Origin: Ruminococcus sp.
GTDB taxonomy: Bacteria > Bacillota > Clostridia > Oscillospirales > Acutalibacteraceae
Length of the DNA stretch: 64,000 nt
Reading direction: 5' to 3'
Assembly (NCBI GenBank): GCA_017416065.1
Contig: JAFQDM010000014.1
Span: forward strand, 1-64,000
Positions 22,729-30,714 of this stretch are shown here, piece after piece. The position numbers and the translations under genes were made by a program. Under the pieces are notes generated by a model that was given only the letters and a program-made list of their open reading frames with translations, did no database searches and had not been told where the DNA came from. How positions within the stretch are numbered: position 1 is the stretch's first letter; every line of letters starts with the position of its first letter.

Positions 22729-22887
22729 TACTTATGTATATGTAAAATGGGAAGTGTTTGCGCATCCGTATGATCTGTAAATACAGAGTCTCTGTTTCTG
22801 TATTTCATATGCGTGGACTATCAGTTGCATATATACAAACCTAAGTTTATACGTTTTTATCATCTTCACAAACGGGAGGACATCATC

Positions 22888-25800
22888 ATGAAAATTCATT
22901 CCAAAAGTATTATTTGGCGTGCAGTGTCTTTTTTGCTGGTTGTGGTAATAACCATATCTATGTTAGCAGTGGGCACCTTTGTGACCCATGCCGCAACATC
23001 GTTTACTGTCACCATCAACACAACGGGCACATCTCGCAGTGTTACGGTAAACGACGCAGATGGCGATGGCTACTACGAAATCTACACTGCAGACGAGCTT
23101 GATGCCTTTTCCTACCGTGTTAATTACAGTAGCTCTTACCGTGCCATCTGTGCCGAGCTTATGGCAGACATTGTCTACAACGAAGGGGTTATGACCGCAG
23201 ATTCCACTCCGGAGAGAGAATGGATTCCTATCGGTTCCAGCACCAGTATACCCTTCAGAGGCAAATTCCTTGGTAATAACAAATCTATATCAGGTCTTTA
23301 TTTTAACAGCAGCTCTGAGTGTGCAGGTCTGTTCGGCTATGTTAACGAACTCGATAATTATATACCTCACATTGAAAATGTGATCGTTAAGAATTCTTAC
23401 TTCAGTAGCGGCAATTACTGTGGTGCAATAGCAGCTCGCTTCCAAGCTCGATATGGCGAAAGCACCATGATCAACTGCGCAAGCATTAATAACATAATTG
23501 ATAATGCAAATCGCTCCTACTGTGGCGGTATAGTAGGATATAATCAAGGCATAATTTCAAATTGTTACAGCACAAGCACAGTAAATGCATCATCATACGT
23601 AGGCGGTATTGTAGGTAATCAAACCGGTACAGTAACCAACTGCTACTATCTGGAGGGCACCTGCGACGGCGGTATAACCGGTGATGATGTTGCAGGTCAG
23701 GCAGAAGCAAAAACCGCTGGGGAATTTGCAAGCGGTGAGGTTGCCTATCTGCTTCAGGGCTCCCAGACCGAGCACGTTTGGGGTCAGACAATAGGCGAAG
23801 ATCCCCTTCCTCTTCTGGGTGATGACAAGGTTTACTACTCAGCTCTCACCTGTGCCGCAGATTCTCCTCTGGGCTATACCAACACTCTTGACAAACAGCA
23901 CGTTTACGAAGTGACAGTAGTCCCTCCCACGCCCTACACCCGTGGCTACACCAAGCACTCTTGCTCAGGCTGCGGACACACTTACATCGACGGATATATT
24001 AACCCCACAAATGTAGGCGGTGACGTAGAACTTTTTGAAAGAATCGATTCAAAGGGCACCATCCTTTCCGTAAGCCCCTCTTACACTGTAGACGAAGCAA
24101 TTTATATTACTGCCGCCAACGGTGTGTGGGTAGGTTTGTATCCTTCAAACGTTACTGCTCCCGAAGATAAAACCGATGCTATCTATACCTACCAGCTTAA
24201 GGACAAGGGTATGCAGTGCTTCGATATGCGTTCAGGTGTATACAACGCTTCTAATCCCGCAGGAGTCCGCGACTGCCTGAATATGGGAGAGACCTACAAC
24301 GTCTTCCTGTTTTCTGACAGCGCATACACAGTTGCCGCCACGGCTTCCTTCACAATCACCTCCGCTAACCAGGTTACGGTAAGCGATACCACCTATTTGC
24401 AGACTGACAGAAAAACCTACACCTACGGCGAAACGATGCTCCTCAACGCAAACGCCCCGGACAATAAATATGCATGGGTAGGTATATATCCAAAAGACAG
24501 TGTAAACAGCAAAACCCCTGCTGAATATATTATAAATATCGGTTCAAGCTTCTCTACAAGCTACGCAGGTCAGACAGTTGACATTATTAATTCTTCTCAG
24601 GTAAACAACGGTGCAGAGCTTCTGCCCGGAGATTATGACGTTTGCCTTTTCGGAACCCAGTCAATGGGCACCATTCTTGCAAAGCTTACGATCTCCGTCA
24701 GAGCAGGCTTTGTTTCTACCGATAAAGAGGCCTACGGCTATGGCGAAAGAATCATTGCAAAAGCCAATCTGTATAACAATGCATACGTAGATGTATCCAA
24801 TACAATGAAAGTTGCATTCACCTCTCCTTTATACAAAGGCCCCGGAACATCGTATGGAACATATTACAATTTGGCAGCAGGAAAAGTTGTAACAGTTCTT
24901 GGAACTCCCGATGCAGATAACACCAATATGGTATGTGTTGACGATGGTACAACTGTCGGCTATATTTATGCAAACTTAACCCCCATAAAGGGTTCCGATG
25001 TTAAGGTGTACGGATATACTGTTGGTACTGAATATTTGAAAAACACACCGACATCTTATACCTCATCTTCATATATAGTGACAACTCTGCCCGATGGTAC
25101 TGCTGTTAATTATCTGGACTATTACAGCTCCGCATATATTACTGCTCAATATGGCGGATATAGCGGTTATTTTTATCGCAACAGTATCACAAGTACTAGT
25201 TATATAGATTTAGTTCACAAACCCCACGATAATTCAAGCGTTAATATTGTGGATCACAATGCCTGGGTTGGTCTATATGATAAGGGCACCGTTCCAAGTG
25301 CCAACGTTCCGCGCGATTCCTGGTACTATTTAAGGCAATTCCCAAACAACTCCGTTGTTCTCCAGGATTTAGCCTCCGGTGACGGCACAACCTATGCAGG
25401 CTCTGCGGTTATAGAGGCCGGCGAACACACTCTGAATCTTTTTGGCGACGGTGACTACAACAACTGGCTGGACGATGCCAACTTTACCGTAAGCGATGAA
25501 GTTACAGGCTCCTTCAAAAGCGGTGCTTACAAGGTTATAGACCTTAACGACGGCTTTGCAAACGGCACAATTGCTCTGGAGCTTTCCGACGATAGCCTTG
25601 GCTATATAGGCACAGGTGAAGCTATTGTCTACTGGGCAGATGCACAGGGCACTCCCCTTGCAGGCTACACAGCACTTGCAACTCAGAAGATAACCGCTTC
25701 TGCCTTTGCTTTTGATATGTATCCACACACAATAATCCCCGAGGGCGCAGCTTCACTTGTGGCATACGTTTCCTACAACGGTATGATGGGTGACACAAGC

Positions 25801-28125
25801 TGCACAATTCCTCTGCCTGATAACTGCAAAGCCTTCGAAGGCCTTAGCAGCAATATTATCTCTGAATTCCAGGTCGTATCCGATCTTCATATCACTTCTG
25901 CTTCCACCGCAACTGACAACGAATACAGCGAAAGCAACACAAACTATCAGGCAATGCTTGCCGACATTACCGCAAACAGCCCCACCAGCGTTGGAATCTT
26001 CGTAAACGGTGATGTTGCAAATAACGGCATTTCCGAAGAATACGAACAGCTAAATAATATGAATGCTCTTGCCGGAACAGTTCCCCCTATCCTCGTCACA
26101 ATGGGTGACCACGATGCATACTCCGGCAACATTACCGATTATGTGGAGTTTGCCACATCTCTCGGCGCCGACGTTTCAGCTCAAAAGCCCTACTATTCAA
26201 AAACCGTAAACGGCTACAAGTACATTTTCCTTGCAAACGATGCAGAGGAGTATTACGGACTGAACAGCGCCTCCGACTATGAATGTGCAGAGCTTTCAGA
26301 AGTTCAGCTGAGCTGGCTCGATGCAGAGCTTTCAGACAATGAAAAGAACAACTCCGGCAAACCTGTGTTTATTATGATGCATCAGCCTGTTGCAAATTCC
26401 GTTGCAGGCTCTCTCACCGGTCAGTGGGCATCAGATAAAGGCATTGTTAATGCCGACGAGTTCAAGGCTGTTGTAAGCAAATACAACAACGTATTTCTCC
26501 TCAGCGGACACAGCCAATTTGACCTTAACAGCGAAAGCAACCACAATCCCGGAAGCGAAGATCTTCCCGTTACACTGAACACAGCCTCCGTCAGCTTCCT
26601 GCGAACAAACGGAAAAATCGCAGACGGCTCTCAGGGCTTCTACGTAAGAATTTACAGCGACAAGGTTGTTTTCCTCGGCAGAGATTTTGCAAACAACAAG
26701 TGGATCCCCTCTGCTTGCTACGTGTTCAGTAACGGCGGCTTATCGGCTAACTACGACAAAAAGGTTCTTCACTCCGGTGACGTGCTGAATACCTCTGAGT
26801 ATATCTCAACCACACAAGACAAGACCCTGCTCTTTAAATCCTCCGATCCTACCATTGTATCAGTTGATGCAAACGGAACGATCTCACCCACAGGCAAGGG
26901 CAATGCCGTAGTCTACGTAACGGCTGCCGCATCAGACACAGAGGTGATTACAAGAGCAAAAGTAGAGATCACATCTCCCATAACCACAACTGCCGACATA
27001 ACCTATCTTTACACCGACCGATGGGGTGCCGAGCAAAGCTACGTTGCGGCTCATACCCTTTCTGACCAGGAGATACTCGGCTTTGAGGGTAACAACTTCA
27101 CCCCATACGCACCGGCACACAGAAGCGGCGAAACATGGATAAATGTTGTCCTTAATAACGCCCCCTTTATTGTAAGCCTTACGGACGACGTGGTCTGGAC
27201 AATAAACAGCGATACCTACAACTCAAAGGACTTTGTTTTGCGCGCCACACAGACAGACACTGTGTTTACAATCACCTCTCAGGTAGGTGATGCCGTGGTT
27301 ATTAACCACAGAAAATACGGAGAGCTTCTGTCAATTGATGCCAGAGCGCTTTCCGAAGATGTATCTGAAAAAGGCTTCTGGTACAACGATACAAACGACG
27401 ACGGAACATACACCGAGGGCACCGACCTGATGCTTACCTACGGCCCTCTCTATGCCTACCGCGTAACCTGCGATATGAACATTAACTACGCGCAGACGGA
27501 CAAATACGATTTCAATATCACAATCGACGCCCCCGCTTACGGACGCAAAATGACAACCCAGGCTAACGGCGCCGTTTCTGATAAGGTAACCGTAGATTAT
27601 ATGATCAATATCCTGACTCCTTATTTCTACGGAGAAGGCAGCAGCTTTGTTCCCTCCGACGATATTAACGGCATTCCCAACGGCCAGCACGTAACGGTTC
27701 GTTCCCTGAGAGATGCCGGCTACACCGTAAAATTCGGTGTGATTCTGGAGCAAGTAGGCTCCTTTGCCCCGGGCAGCACGGCGTATCCCACCTTTGAGGA
27801 TGCCCTTGCCGCAGCAAAAGCCGCAAAGTACGGCACCGCAACCAGCAAAGCCATACTTACAAAGGTTGCAGAGAATTACACCGCACCCACTATGACCGAA
27901 GCGGGAACCTACTGCACGCTCTACGACTGCTCAAACTACGACATCAGCAACAAGAACCGATTCGGGTTTACCATCGGCTTTAACAACACCGCCGCAAACC
28001 ACAAGAAGTTCTACAACGTGTACTCATATGTGACCGTCACCACCCCCGAAAAGGTGACCACCACCTACATCAGTAACGTGCAAACTCTCAACATCTACAA
28101 CACGGGTACACCTTTGCTCCCATAA
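22888..28125 (+). CDS. Very large secreted protein with GLUG-like repeats, SH3-like and calcineurin-like phosphoesterase domains
   Basis: 1745 residues. The start at 22888 follows GGGAGGA; the signal peptide is residues 1-38. Order: Gly/Asn-rich GLUG-type beta-helix repeats (about 110-280, GLFGYVN, GGIVGYNQG, GGIVGNQTG); a CGHTY segment near 370; repeated beta domains each with an AWVG(I/L)Y motif; a bacterial SH3-like stretch near 650-700; a calcineurin-like phosphoesterase near 1000-1260 (SDLHI, NGDVAN, GDHD, MMHQP, GHSQ); a Big_2-like domain near 1300; and an unassigned C-terminus. GDHD and GHSQ deviate from the usual GNH(D/E) and GHxH. No dockerin, sortase motif or membrane anchor is seen. 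It likely acts at the cell surface or outside. Confidence 0.85.
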   Translation: MKIHSKSIIWRAVSFLLVVVITISMLAVGTFVTHAATSFTVTINTTGTSRSVTVNDADGDGYYEIYTADELDAFSYRVNYSSSYRAICAELMADIVYNEGVMTADSTPEREWIPIGSSTSIPFRGKFLGNNKSISGLYFNSSSECAGLFGYVNELDNYIPHIENVIVKNSYFSSGNYCGAIAARFQARYGESTMINCASINNIIDNANRSYCGGIVGYNQGIISNCYSTSTVNASSYVGGIVGNQTGTVTNCYYLEGTCDGGITGDDVAGQAEAKTAGEFASGEVAYLLQGSQTEHVWGQTIGEDPLPLLGDDKVYYSALTCAADSPLGYTNTLDKQHVYEVTVVPPTPYTRGYTKHSCSGCGHTYIDGYINPTNVGGDVELFERIDSKGTILSVSPSYTVDEAIYITAANGVWVGLYPSNVTAPEDKTDAIYTYQLKDKGMQCFDMRSGVYNASNPAGVRDCLNMGETYNVFLFSDSAYTVAATASFTITSANQVTVSDTTYLQTDRKTYTYGETMLLNANAPDNKYAWVGIYPKDSVNSKTPAEYIINIGSSFSTSYAGQTVDIINSSQVNNGAELLPGDYDVCLFGTQSMGTILAKLTISVRAGFVSTDKEAYGYGERIIAKANLYNNAYVDVSNTMKVAFTSPLYKGPGTSYGTYYNLAAGKVVTVLGTPDADNTNMVCVDDGTTVGYIYANLTPIKGSDVKVYGYTVGTEYLKNTPTSYTSSSYIVTTLPDGTAVNYLDYYSSAYITAQYGGYSGYFYRNSITSTSYIDLVHKPHDNSSVNIVDHNAWVGLYDKGTVPSANVPRDSWYYLRQFPNNSVVLQDLASGDGTTYAGSAVIEAGEHTLNLFGDGDYNNWLDDANFTVSDEVTGSFKSGAYKVIDLNDGFANGTIALELSDDSLGYIGTGEAIVYWADAQGTPLAGYTALATQKITASAFAFDMYPHTIIPEGAASLVAYVSYNGMMGDTSCTIPLPDNCKAFEGLSSNIISEFQVVSDLHITSASTATDNEYSESNTNYQAMLADITANSPTSVGIFVNGDVANNGISEEYEQLNNMNALAGTVPPILVTMGDHDAYSGNITDYVEFATSLGADVSAQKPYYSKTVNGYKYIFLANDAEEYYGLNSASDYECAELSEVQLSWLDAELSDNEKNNSGKPVFIMMHQPVANSVAGSLTGQWASDKGIVNADEFKAVVSKYNNVFLLSGHSQFDLNSESNHNPGSEDLPVTLNTASVSFLRTNGKIADGSQGFYVRIYSDKVVFLGRDFANNKWIPSACYVFSNGGLSANYDKKVLHSGDVLNTSEYISTTQDKTLLFKSSDPTIVSVDANGTISPTGKGNAVVYVTAAASDTEVITRAKVEITSPITTTADITYLYTDRWGAEQSYVAAHTLSDQEILGFEGNNFTPYAPAHRSGETWINVVLNNAPFIVSLTDDVVWTINSDTYNSKDFVLRATQTDTVFTITSQVGDAVVINHRKYGELLSIDARALSEDVSEKGFWYNDTNDDGTYTEGTDLMLTYGPLYAYRVTCDMNINYAQTDKYDFNITIDAPAYGRKMTTQANGAVSDKVTVDYMINILTPYFYGEGSSFVPSDDINGIPNGQHVTVRSLRDAGYTVKFGVILEQVGSFAPGSTAYPTFEDALAAAKAAKYGTATSKAILTKVAENYTAPTMTEAGTYCTLYDCSNYDISNKNRFGFTIGFNNTAANHKKFYNVYSYVTVTTPEKVTTTYISNVQTLNIYNTGTPLLP

Positions 28126-28215: not shown

Positions 28216-28530
28216 TTATTTCTCTTCGTATTTTTGTTGATTTAGAATTATACAACCATTTTTGCATTTCCACTTGTTTTCTTTATCTCTACAAACATTT
28301 AGATATTCACAAATTTTACACCTGGGAGGAAGCTCTCCTTTTTCTTTTCGTTTGTAGTTCAATAATATACAGCCGTTTATGCACTTCCAATCGTTTTCTT
28401 TGTCTCTGCACATTCCTAACAATTCACAACACTGACAATTATATGGTATAGACATAAAAGCTCTTTCTTCTTTATCCGCTAATAACCATTTCACTCCATC
28501 TATAATTAAATCAAGAAGACTATATCTCAT
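28216..28530 (-). CDS. Small Cys-rich protein with two zinc-binding-like repeats
   Basis: 104 residues. After a ~35-residue N-terminus come two near-identical repeats: C-x2-CE-x5-CRDKEN-x-WKC-x-NGCI-x-LN. Each holds five Cys, so each repeat probably binds a metal. The start at 28530 is set by GGTGG 5-9 nt upstream. Its ribosome site begins only ~10 nt after a strong terminator (28550-28571), leaving no room for a separate promoter, so expression should depend on readthrough of that terminator. A+T-rich relative to neighbours. I do not recognise the family. Confidence 0.75.
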   Translation of the reverse strand: MRYSLLDLIIDGVKWLLADKEERAFMSIPYNCQCCELLGMCRDKENDWKCINGCILLNYKRKEKGELPPRCKICEYLNVCRDKENKWKCKNGCIILNQQKYEEK

Positions 28531-28540
28531 AAAAACCACC

Positions 28541-28716
28541 AAATAAAAAAGCACACCCCGAAGGATGTGCTGAAAAAGTGTTTCCTCGGTTTAGTTACCA
28601 CACTACACCGATAAGTTATCTACGCAAAGGGAGATAAGAGGTAAACACCTTTTACCAAGGTAGTTTGCCCCTTTGCGTATAAAAACACTTATCAAATATT
28701 AAAATGTAGTGTGGTA
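28541..28716 (-). ncRNA. Structured leader or small RNA ahead of the Cys-rich gene
   Basis: Minus-strand transcript predicted from the promoter at 28722-28750 to the terminator at 28550. Its first bases form a 12-bp closing stem TACCACACTACA/TGTAGTGTGGTA (28705-28716 with 28596-28607). Inside are GATAAGT/ACTTATC (28610-28616 with 28687-28693) and an 11-bp TACGCAAAGGG/CCCTTTGCGTA helix (28621-28631 with 28669-28679). The apex can form either ACCTT/AAGGT or GGTAAA/TTTACC. AAGTGTTT in the 5' arm could also pair with AAACACTT just before the terminator. This is riboswitch-like in layout; no known class is recognised. Confidence 0.65.
28550..28571 (-). terminator. Intrinsic terminator with UUCG loop before the Cys-rich gene
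   Basis: Minus strand: AGCACATCC, UUCG loop, GGGTGTGCT (9 bp with one U-G pair), then TTTTTTATTT. The start codon of the Cys-rich gene is ~20 nt further on. Confidence 0.88.
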
Positions 28717-28721
28717 TCATT

Positions 28722-28750
28722 ATTATAGCATAGTGTTTGATGGTTTTCAA
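28722..28750 (-). promoter_or_regulatory. Promoter of the structured leader RNA
   Basis: Minus strand: -35 TTGAAA (28745-28750), 17-nt spacer, -10 TATAAT (28722-28727) preceded by TGC (extended -10). The predicted start falls at the first base of the closing stem. Confidence 0.88.
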
Positions 28751-28806
28751 AGGTTTTAGAACAATTGTTGTAATTTTGTGAAAAATTTAAGAGTCATAAC
28801 AAAAAA

Positions 28807-28883: not shown

Positions 28884-29885
28884 TTATTTCATTGCATTAT
28901 AAACTGCAACTGCACAAGCAACTGTAGCACCAACCATGGGGTTGTTACCCATACCGATAAGGCCCATCATCTCAACGTGAGCAGGAACAGAAGAAGAACC
29001 TGCAAACTGAGCGTCGCCGTGCATACGACCCATAGAGTCTGTGAGACCGTAGGAAGCAGGACCTGCACCCATGTTGTCGGGGTGGAGGGTACGGCCTGTG
29101 CCGCCGCCGGAAGCTACTGAGAAGTACTTAACGCCGTTCTCAAGTGCCCACTTCTTGTATGTGCCTGCAACCAGGTGCTGGAATCTTGTGGGGTTAGTGG
29201 AGTTACCTGTGATGGAAACGCCAACGTCCTCTTTCTGCATGATTGCAACGCCCTCGCGAACGTCGTCTGCGCCGTAGCAGCGAACAGCAGCTCTCTCGCC
29301 GTCGGAGAATGCCTTCTCCTCAAGGATCTTCAGCTCGCCTGTGAAGTAGTCAAACTCTGTCTCAACGTATGTGAAGCCGTTGATTCTGGAGATGATGTAT
29401 GCAGCATCCTTGCCAAGACCGTTGAGGATAACTCTCAGGGGCTCTTTTCTTGCTTTGTTTGCGTTTCTTGCGATACCGATAGCACCCTCTGCAGCAGCAA
29501 AGGACTCGTGACCTGCAAGGAATGCAAAGCACTTGGTCTCGTCTCTGAGGAGCATTGCGCCCAGGTTACCGTGGCCAAGACCAACGTTTCTCTGCTCTGC
29601 AACAGAGCCGGGAATACAGAAAGCCTCAAGACCTACACCAATTGCCTCTGCAGCGTCTGCAGCAGTTGTGCAACCCTTCTTGATTGCAACTGCGCAACCC
29701 AGAGTGTATGCCCAGGAAGCGTTCTCAAATGCGATGGGCTGAACGCCCTTTACGATCTCATCGGGGTCGAAGCCCTTCTCAAGACAGATAGCTCTTGCCT
29801 CTTCCAGATCCTTGATGCCGTACTCAGCCAGGCAAGCGTTGATCTTGGGCATTCTTCTGTCCATACTTTCAAATGTAACAGCCAT
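28884..29885 (-). CDS. GGGtGRT family protein
   Basis: 333 residues, cytoplasmic, no signal peptide. It contains the family-naming GGGTGRTLHPDN segment (about residue 265), plus Gly-rich stretches such as NVGLGHGNLGAML and MHGDAQFAGSSSVP. The family is conserved in Clostridia and some other anaerobes, and its biochemical function is not established. It sits 18 nt after the iron-sulfur scaffold gene on the same strand, a pairing known from many genomes. AGGGAGG lies before the ATG. A role in metal-cluster or redox chemistry is inferred from the pairing only. Confidence 0.92.
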   Translation of the reverse strand: MAVTFESMDRRMPKINACLAEYGIKDLEEARAICLEKGFDPDEIVKGVQPIAFENASWAYTLGCAVAIKKGCTTAADAAEAIGVGLEAFCIPGSVAEQRNVGLGHGNLGAMLLRDETKCFAFLAGHESFAAAEGAIGIARNANKARKEPLRVILNGLGKDAAYIISRINGFTYVETEFDYFTGELKILEEKAFSDGERAAVRCYGADDVREGVAIMQKEDVGVSITGNSTNPTRFQHLVAGTYKKWALENGVKYFSVASGGGTGRTLHPDNMGAGPASYGLTDSMGRMHGDAQFAGSSSVPAHVEMMGLIGMGNNPMVGATVACAVAVYNAMK

Positions 29886-29903
29886 GTCGTTAACCTCCCT
29901 TAA

Positions 29904-30596
29904 TTATTCTTCACGAGGGTCAATGTACTTAGCTGCGCCATCAAAGCGACCGTACTGACCGATGTTGTTCTTGTATGCCTCGTCAGGGCTCATACCGTGA
30001 CGGATATCCTCCATCATCTTGCCCAGCTTTACGAACTGATAGCCGATAACCTCGTTGTTCTCGTCCAGAGCTGTCTTGAGCACGTAGCCCTCTGCCATCT
30101 CCATATAACGAACGCCCTTGTCCTTTGTGGAGAACATGGTACCAACCTGAGAACGAAGACCCTTACCAAGGTCCTCAAGGCCTGCGCCGATGGGAAGACC
30201 ATCCTCAGAGAATGCTGTCTGGCTTCTGCCGTATGCAAGCTGCTCAAAGATGTTTCTCATAGCGGTGTTGATTGCGTCGCAAACAAGGTCTGTGTTTAAG
30301 CACTCAAGGAGAGTCTTGCCGGGAAGGATCTCTGCTGCCATAGCTGCAGAGTGAGTCATACCGGAGCATCCGAGAGTCTCTACCAGAGCCTCTTCTACGA
30401 TACCGTTCTTAACGTTGAGAGTGAGCTTACATGTGCCCTGCTGAGGTGCACACCAGCCTACACCGTGGGAAAGACCGGAAATGTCGGAAATCTGATAGGA
30501 TTTTACCCATTTGCCCTCTTCGGGAATAGGTGCGGGACCGTGCTTGGGTCCTTTTGCAACAGTACACATTTTCTGTACTTCATGAGAATAGTTCAT
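29904..30596 (-). CDS. NifU/IscU-like iron-sulfur cluster assembly scaffold protein
   Basis: 230 residues. The NifU-N-type core shows GWCAPQQGTCKLTLNV and ETLGCSGMTHSAAMAAEIL, with Cys residues able to hold a nascent cluster, extended by a longer C-terminal part than in ordinary IscU (about 130 residues). The start at 30596 is chosen because AAAGGAG lies 9 nt upstream. First gene of a two-gene operon with the GGGtGRT protein. Which target protein receives the cluster is unknown; the strict pairing suggests the GGGtGRT protein is a partner. Confidence 0.9.
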   Translation of the reverse strand: MNYSHEVQKMCTVAKGPKHGPAPIPEEGKWVKSYQISDISGLSHGVGWCAPQQGTCKLTLNVKNGIVEEALVETLGCSGMTHSAAMAAEILPGKTLLECLNTDLVCDAINTAMRNIFEQLAYGRSQTAFSEDGLPIGAGLEDLGKGLRSQVGTMFSTKDKGVRYMEMAEGYVLKTALDENNEVIGYQFVKLGKMMEDIRHGMSPDEAYKNNIGQYGRFDGAAKYIDPREE

Positions 30597-30714
30597 TTTG
30601 TTGCTACTCCTTTCTGAAAATAAAAAGTTGAGATAACTCATACAGGGACATTATATGCCATTTTGCGCTTTTTTTCAATAGTTTTTTGGGTAGAAATTTG
30701 CACATTTTTGCAAG

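Follow-up and report, generated by a model that had tools for sequence, protein, structure and literature searches.

In attenuators of the trp type and in riboswitch attenuators, a promoter is followed by a leader in which an antiterminator and a terminator are mutually exclusive, and the gene lies directly behind. In the antisense attenuator of the pT181 type, the freeing of one strand lets another strand block or permit the terminator. T-box leaders, which we take to be family RF00230, are multi-copy attenuators of Firmicutes that at times occur in tandem, and the c-di-GMP (GEMM) riboswitches are a global type of leader found before diverse surface-related genes. Here we describe a leader from a 64,000-nucleotide stretch of DNA, the whole of which is referred to as the window, and compare it with its relatives in other genomes. 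Judging from these comparisons, the leader probably represents a new class of transcription attenuators in the taxonomic class of the window, whatever the kind of input to which it responds. The unit would consist of a fixed sigma-A-type promoter, an RNA of ~165 nt and a terminator, usually placed directly before a ribosome site.

Layout of the leader and its surroundings

The leader lies on the minus strand (Table 1). The initial annotation had described an extended -10 promoter with a start at the first base of a 12-bp closing stem, two further nested helices of 7 and 11 bp, a 9-bp terminator with UUCG loop and T-tract, and a ribosome site before a 104-residue gene with two Cys repeats. All of these were found again in the sequence, with the closing stem P1 beginning ten bases past the first -10 base, and only the distance between terminator and start codon, previously given as ~20 nt, had to be corrected to 14 nt from the U-tract to the ATG. 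The stretch from 28530 to 28760 folds with a minimum free energy (MFE) of -81.1 kcal/mol compared to a shuffle mean of -44.65 (sd 3.94), and 0/200 shuffles were as good.

Table 1. Positions of the leader elements in the window, and of selected loci carrying the leader in other records
Feature	Coordinates	Strand	Details or basis
Promoter	28722..28750	-	-35 TTGAAA 28750-28745, 17-nt spacer, extended -10 TG-N-TATAAT 28730-28722; from sequence
Leader RNA, from the start of P1 through the U-tract	28545..28717	-	R1 and R2 matches; fold z -9.25
P1, 12 bp	28705..28716 with 28596..28607	-	Sequence and fold; family pair counts
7-bp helix, long form of leader	28687..28693 with 28610..28616	-	Sequence
11-bp helix	28669..28679 with 28621..28631	-	Sequence and fold
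Strand A (inner hairpin P3, 5' side)	28657..28671	-	Pair changes in first copies
Strand B (inner hairpin P3, 3' side), complementary to C as well	28638..28656	-	B:C duplex -17.4 kcal/mol
Strand C, pre-terminator GAGGAAACACTTTTTC, alternative partner of B	28572..28587	-	Duplex energy and pair counts
Intrinsic terminator, 9 bp, UUCG loop	28550..28571	-	D 28571-28563, E 28558-28550; -13.9 kcal/mol
U-tract	28550-28545	-	Sequence
Ribosome site GGTGG	28540-28536	-	Sequence
Cys-rich ORF, 104 codons	28216..28530	-	ATG 28530; stop codon ends at 28216
Arrays of sense copies	L158 886-1668	-	Four copies
	L185 6838-7483	-	Three copies
	L278 1501-2059	+	Three copies
MNIK/MNLK small-protein loci	L103, L283, L288, L293, L157, L211		Downstream ORFs
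Fecal phage records with leader copy	L327 2075-2231 (MT835845.1); MT837627.1		Nucleotide search

The product of the Cys-rich gene, in which the repeat CxxCx5CRDKENxWKCxNGC occurs twice, had no match in Pfam, NCBIfam or PHROG. Relatives of this ORF were found in genome G026 (75%) and, in a shorter form, in genome G016 (41% over 64 residues, in an aligned frame that holds two stops), and both are preceded by the same type of leader. Upstream of the leader lies a GGGtGRT gene (PF14057), and since this gene is followed by its own hairpin and U-run (28838-28801, read from the sequence), no other promoter is evident for the Cys-rich gene. At 28884-30641 (minus strand), the GGGtGRT gene adjoins a gene whose NifU_N match is below threshold (E 0.0023). 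On the plus strand, a gene for an exported-looking protein of 1770 residues (22813-28125) ends convergent to the Cys-rich gene; its product matches GLUG and, weakly, SH3_3, and one stretch of it looks like a phosphoesterase when judged solely by eye.

Distribution of the family and the genes behind the leader

A second copy of the leader is present in the same genome as the window (80% identity), and clear copies were found in 5/97 other genomes searched (94, 83, 82, 79, and 72% identity). Matches of the first nucleotide search, which concerned 37/98 genomes at E 0.1, were mostly rejected; by length and score, six places besides the window were real, five in relatives and one in the window's own genome, and the rejected ones were matches of 17-42 bases. 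A covariance model built from five copies (R1), against which the window leader scores 89.5 bits, matched 29/161 genomes of the genus at E 0.01, part of them falsely, and some low matches that were plain terminators (L063, L064) or lay on the opposite strand were left out. A second model (R2) was built from 15 more diverged members found with R1 and gives the window leader 31.7 bits (E 4e-4). It matched 119/161 genomes of the genus (E 0.001), 142/394 genomes of the order in 73/168 genera (E 0.001) and 97/391 genomes of the class in 56/223 genera (E 1e-4); of 299 genomes sampled from the phylum, it matched only the window's own (E 1e-4). The large searches scored 7-18 candidates in each genome, which makes the counts per genome lower bounds; the window's own genome holds at least eight copies, seven R2 matches, including the C22 copy, plus the window copy.

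A DNA pattern derived from the main family identified 95 stretches among named genomes, 90 of which also carry an R2 match, and 73 of the 80 titled stretches are labelled Ruminococcus, Oscillospiraceae, Ruminococcaceae, Monoglobus, Eubacterium, Clostridiales or Clostridia. An R2 match was absent from the remaining five, L127 (Victivallales), L161 (Runella), L186 (Enterobacteriaceae), L194 (Winogradskyella) and L217. As judged from these matches, the family is large, occurs in many gut and rumen Clostridia and spans the taxonomic class of the window. One of the 90, a strong match (L148 4835-4996, plus strand, 98.9 bits), lies in a contig labelled Bacteroides sp., which does not fit and may reflect a mislabelled bin or a transfer. 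A leader match is also carried by one of four pattern stretches in viral contigs, an IMG/VR contig (L219 6410-6577), and a main-family copy used as nucleotide query found two unannotated human-fecal "Bacteriophage sp." records at 77% (Table 1). Nucleotide searches of phages with a compact copy and of plasmids with the leader plus gene gave no match.

The placement of the promoter recurs across the family. By sequence, the best -10 hexamer lies ten bases before P1 in 205/248 copies, and a hexamer of 4/6 or better is present in 246/248; the TG extension is found in 208/248, a -35 element of 4/6 or better in 178/248 and a spacer of 17 in 156/248. Our survey of targets comprised 251 distinct matches in the sense direction, of which a few have low scores, and 18 of the 251 are followed by a further copy within 400 nt and not directly by a gene. 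Among the 224 others, which have no following copy and 300 nt or more of sequence, an ORF of at least 45 codons with a ribosome site within 150 nt follows in 200, and 154 of these 200 ORFs start 10-39 nt past the U-tract. In the control, i.e., upstream on the other strand, a ribosome-site ORF was found in 58/217.

Up to four copies stand in a row (L158), and in the arrays L158, L185 and L278 a gene with a ribosome site comes right after the last copy, while in the pair at L052 the terminator of the first copy is followed by a promoter belonging to the second. Such series of complete copies would fit a unit that mainly makes a trans-acting RNA of ~165 nt, directed at other copies or messages, with genes behind it because a promoter is carried along. 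We consider this unlikely, since a trans-acting RNA would not need the 10-39 nt spacing between U-tract and ORF.

Of the 200 downstream proteins 129 were scanned, the 71 from the pattern scan being left out. The commonest Pfam family was the BspA-type LRR (24), and Zn_Ribbon_1 (6), HTH_3 (5), YAcAr (4) and M23 (3) were also found; by a rough home-made rule, 69/129 N-termini are signal-peptide-like or lipoprotein-like. So broad a set of targets speaks for a general signal and not for a single pathway. Behind the first seven leaders, a Cys-rich ORF occurs in three (the window, G026 and G016) and a YAcAr/YspA SLOG gene in four (the second copy of the window's own genome, G056, G020 and G041), and in the window's own genome the copies stand before the Cys-rich ORF, a YAcAr gene and a gene for a zinc-ribbon protein, before two genes for exported or membrane proteins, and before small proteins without an assigned family. 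Leaders in several genera are followed by one type of small protein (MNIK or MNLK start, 77-82 residues; Table 1).

From the Cys-rich product, the initial annotation had derived a metal or redox signal. In favour of a riboswitch that senses metals or redox state and controls the Cys-rich gene are the two Cys repeats and the zinc ribbons among the scanned targets. However, the same type of leader precedes SLOG genes in 4/7 first copies, LRR and exported proteins are commoner elsewhere, and outside the helices few bases are conserved at 90% or more (consensus of 80 rows). Such a riboswitch is thus very improbable, and since the targets are as diverse as LRR and other exported proteins, zinc ribbons, HTH and SLOG proteins, the suggested signal is not supported.

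The leaders of the window and G056 are 95.5% identical, compared to 84.4% for the GGGtGRT gene and ~48% for the stretches on either side, and the gene behind the G056 leader differs from that of the window. Moreover, in another draw of GGGtGRT loci the R1 model found a leader within the 1.5-kb flank in 1/30, the window's own. The unit thus seems to have been exchanged apart from its gene. These observations, like the copies in the two fecal phage records and the IMG/VR contig, might suggest that promoter and hairpin form a mobile repeat, which would spread as one unit and hardly affect regulation. We find this quite improbable, because several pairings have survived changes on both sides, many G-U pairs among them as expected for an RNA, and because orientation and distance to the gene are regular. 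In addition, the leader with its Cys-rich ORF lies ~2 kb (G016) and ~6 kb (G026) from GGGtGRT on the same contig, which suggests a shared ancestry of place and not free jumping; some places of the leader unit therefore seem to be inherited.

Competing pairings and the proposed switch

Returning to an attenuator as the preferred reading, we examined which strands of the leader pair. The helix scan was exhaustive and covered 80 distinct rows (85 matches minus three opposite-strand hits and two duplicates). Its top six helices were P2 (A:B2), C:D, P1, A:B, D:E and B:C, and P2, D:E and B:C reached this rank although they are outside the search model's own pairs. In contrast, C:D is part of the model used for fetching and aligning, and the alignment rows are high-scoring matches, not a random sample; support for P1, A:B and C:D hence leans on selection.

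In a swap test of five links (B2:A, A:B, B:C, C:D and D:E), the native partner beat the swapped partner in every link (0/2000 permutations each). Unlinked strands gave little: 1289 (A:C), 828 (B2:C) and 1882 (A:E) of 2000 permutations were as low, and the controls B2:E (173), B:D (130) and B:E (31 of 2000) were not entirely null. Swapped B and C strands still pair at a mean of -12.0 kcal/mol, as would be useful to an RNA acting on other copies, but the advantage of native B:C over swapped B:C speaks against the trans-acting RNA considered above.

Pairs were counted in alignment A9, comprising 83 distinct rows with the three opposite-strand hits included. The set of pairs assigned to a stop state was 94.5% paired, with two-sided change in 37/46 pairs, and the set assigned to a read-through state 95.3%, with two-sided change in 28/38 pairs. 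No shuffle out of 500 reached either set on any of five measures, the slid controls dropped to 31-61%, and in alignment A6 (15 rows) the stop and read-through sets were 93.6 and 90.1% paired, respectively. Of the individual helices, P1 was 99.6% paired in A9 with two-sided changes in 10/11 pairs, the terminator helix was 96.1% paired in A9, and C:D was 95.3% paired in the main family with two-sided change in 6/13 pairs. Compensatory changes, which the initial annotation had named as the evidence to look for in homologues, were thus present, and two-sided pair changes in P1 to P3 occur already among the first seven and five copies. Since the inner strands each fit two partners, many of the changes are G-U steps, and this points to RNA and away from DNA cruciforms as the putative form in which the pairs are kept. 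Comparison of the copies shows that neighbouring strands of the predicted chain B2-A-B-C-D-E can pair and co-evolve.

Hence, we propose the following mechanism. Strands A, B and B2 lie inside the stem P1, and C, D and E after it. In the read-through state, A:B would form together with C:D, the latter acting as antiterminator so that the terminator would remain unformed. In the stop state, A:B2, B:C and the terminator D:E would be able to coexist, and B:C, which would cross P1, is a proposed pseudoknot. When folded without pseudoknots, the MFE structure contained the terminator in 42/80 and the antiterminator in 38/80 rows, and the two were within 3 kcal/mol in 40/80; the mean gap of the main family was 2.4 kcal/mol toward the terminator (sd 3.5, range -11.0 to 12.1). 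In the main family, the predicted antiterminator excludes the terminator, and with predicted energies of the two states lying close together in roughly half of the copies, the nascent RNA could be tipped by a small input. As the two co-evolving sets of helices have similar energy, the refolding lends itself to tests with paired mutations.

A leader peptide was considered as a candidate input and rejected: an ATG with a ribosome site and at least 6 codons was present in 2/280 rows compared to 12.2 in mononucleotide shuffles, and an ORF with any start in 21/280 compared to 30.05, where 29 of the 280 rows are opposite-strand matches. From these counts, a leader peptide appears unlikely.

A wider reading is conceivable, if doubtful, in which the family would be a class-wide sensory RNA new to science. 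It would form a mobile promoter-plus-switch module, with a six-strand displacement chain and a pseudoknot, that places unrelated accessory genes (surface LRR, lipoproteins, cell-wall peptidases, SLOG, HTH, some of them phage-borne) under one common intracellular signal. If the leader is a switch, one signal would control a large number of exported and accessory genes, so far not recognised as a set, in gut and rumen bacteria that are mostly uncultured.

The subfamily of the window differs from the main family in the state of this chain. In 8/10 copies (those with segments parsed) B:C is retained, with energies of -17.4 to -18.3 kcal/mol; a local C:D helix is found in only 1/8 (L007), where it is weak, and D pairs with E in the MFE structure of 9/9. 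Opening the terminator costs 9.1-13.1 kcal/mol in the subfamily, by a measure somewhat different from the gap used for the main family. As read from these copies, the subfamily keeps P1, P3, B:C and a strong terminator, with C:D missing or weak, and in the folding models the terminator is not excluded by an antiterminator. Part of the switch appears to be gone from the window copy. Since C:D is missing or weak and the terminator strong, the Cys-rich gene is most likely kept low, and read-through would occur via leakage or a further antitermination step; in terms of the model, the window leader would either only damp expression or have another route of relief.

For the window copy alone, there is close to an even chance that a worn-down attenuator now acts as a constitutive partial terminator that lowers expression, which would be compatible with the attenuator reading of the family. 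The D:E helix of all nine copies, its cost of opening and the near loss of local C:D are in line with such wear, whereas the retained B:C and the two-sided changes in P1 to P3 among the first copies are not. With one helix lost or weak, the subfamily is a natural control for the switch proposed in the main family.

The initial annotation had also proposed a switchable alternative structure. This idea holds for the family, via a different strand pairing than the one suggested (B:C, Table 1), while in the window the chain is kept only in part. The pairing originally named, AAGTGTTT with AAACACTT, exists in the window copy, but it was dropped because it is not conserved; the G056 copy reads AAGTTTTT, and compact copies lack the pairing. 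For the same strand before the terminator, the conserved alternative partner lies at 28653-28638, in the 3' strand of the inner hairpin, and had gone unnamed in the initial annotation.

Relation to described leaders and attenuators

A search against Rfam 15 at gathering score gave no match at the element, either in the window or in 40 family loci, in agreement with the initial annotation, which recognised no known riboswitch class. Elsewhere, the search returned tRNA, 5S rRNA and one Gut-1 RNA, and in the window one tRNA. In a relaxed Rfam search of three elements all matches were sub-threshold, the best with E 0.096 (sbrA) in the window and E 0.19 in L165. The Gut-1 RNA (RF01706; L045 2165-2242, minus strand) lies ~500 nt from a leader copy. 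The leader is thus present in 97/391 genomes of the class and 119/161 of the genus, often in several copies, yet has no Rfam 15 match.

No such family was described in the passages of the literature that were compared, and an earlier, unnamed sighting of the family is possible. Metagenome-derived RNA candidates from the human microbiome, some of them with terminators, have been reported (Fremin and Bhatt, 2021; PMC8040213), and an overlap between these candidates and the leader family is possible.

Compared with the pT181 attenuator (RF00242), the window reached a sub-threshold score of 23.1 bits against a gathering score of 56, which is at chance level (E 0.97), and no plasmid replication gene accompanies the leader. 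Unlike T-box leaders, the family has no Rfam T-box match at gathering score in the window or the 40 loci, and the targets seen are not the typical amino-acid genes. For the c-di-GMP (GEMM) riboswitches there was likewise no match in the window or the 40 loci, and no conserved aptamer was recognised.

The closest likeness is to the attenuators of the trp and riboswitch type, with which the family shares the promoter, the mutually exclusive hairpins, here predicted, and the position of the gene. It differs from them in showing no sign of a leader peptide, in its five linked pairings and proposed pseudoknot, and in that one type of leader, with the promoter fixed in the unit, stands before many unrelated genes. 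We call the leader a new class within a known kind, the transcription attenuators.
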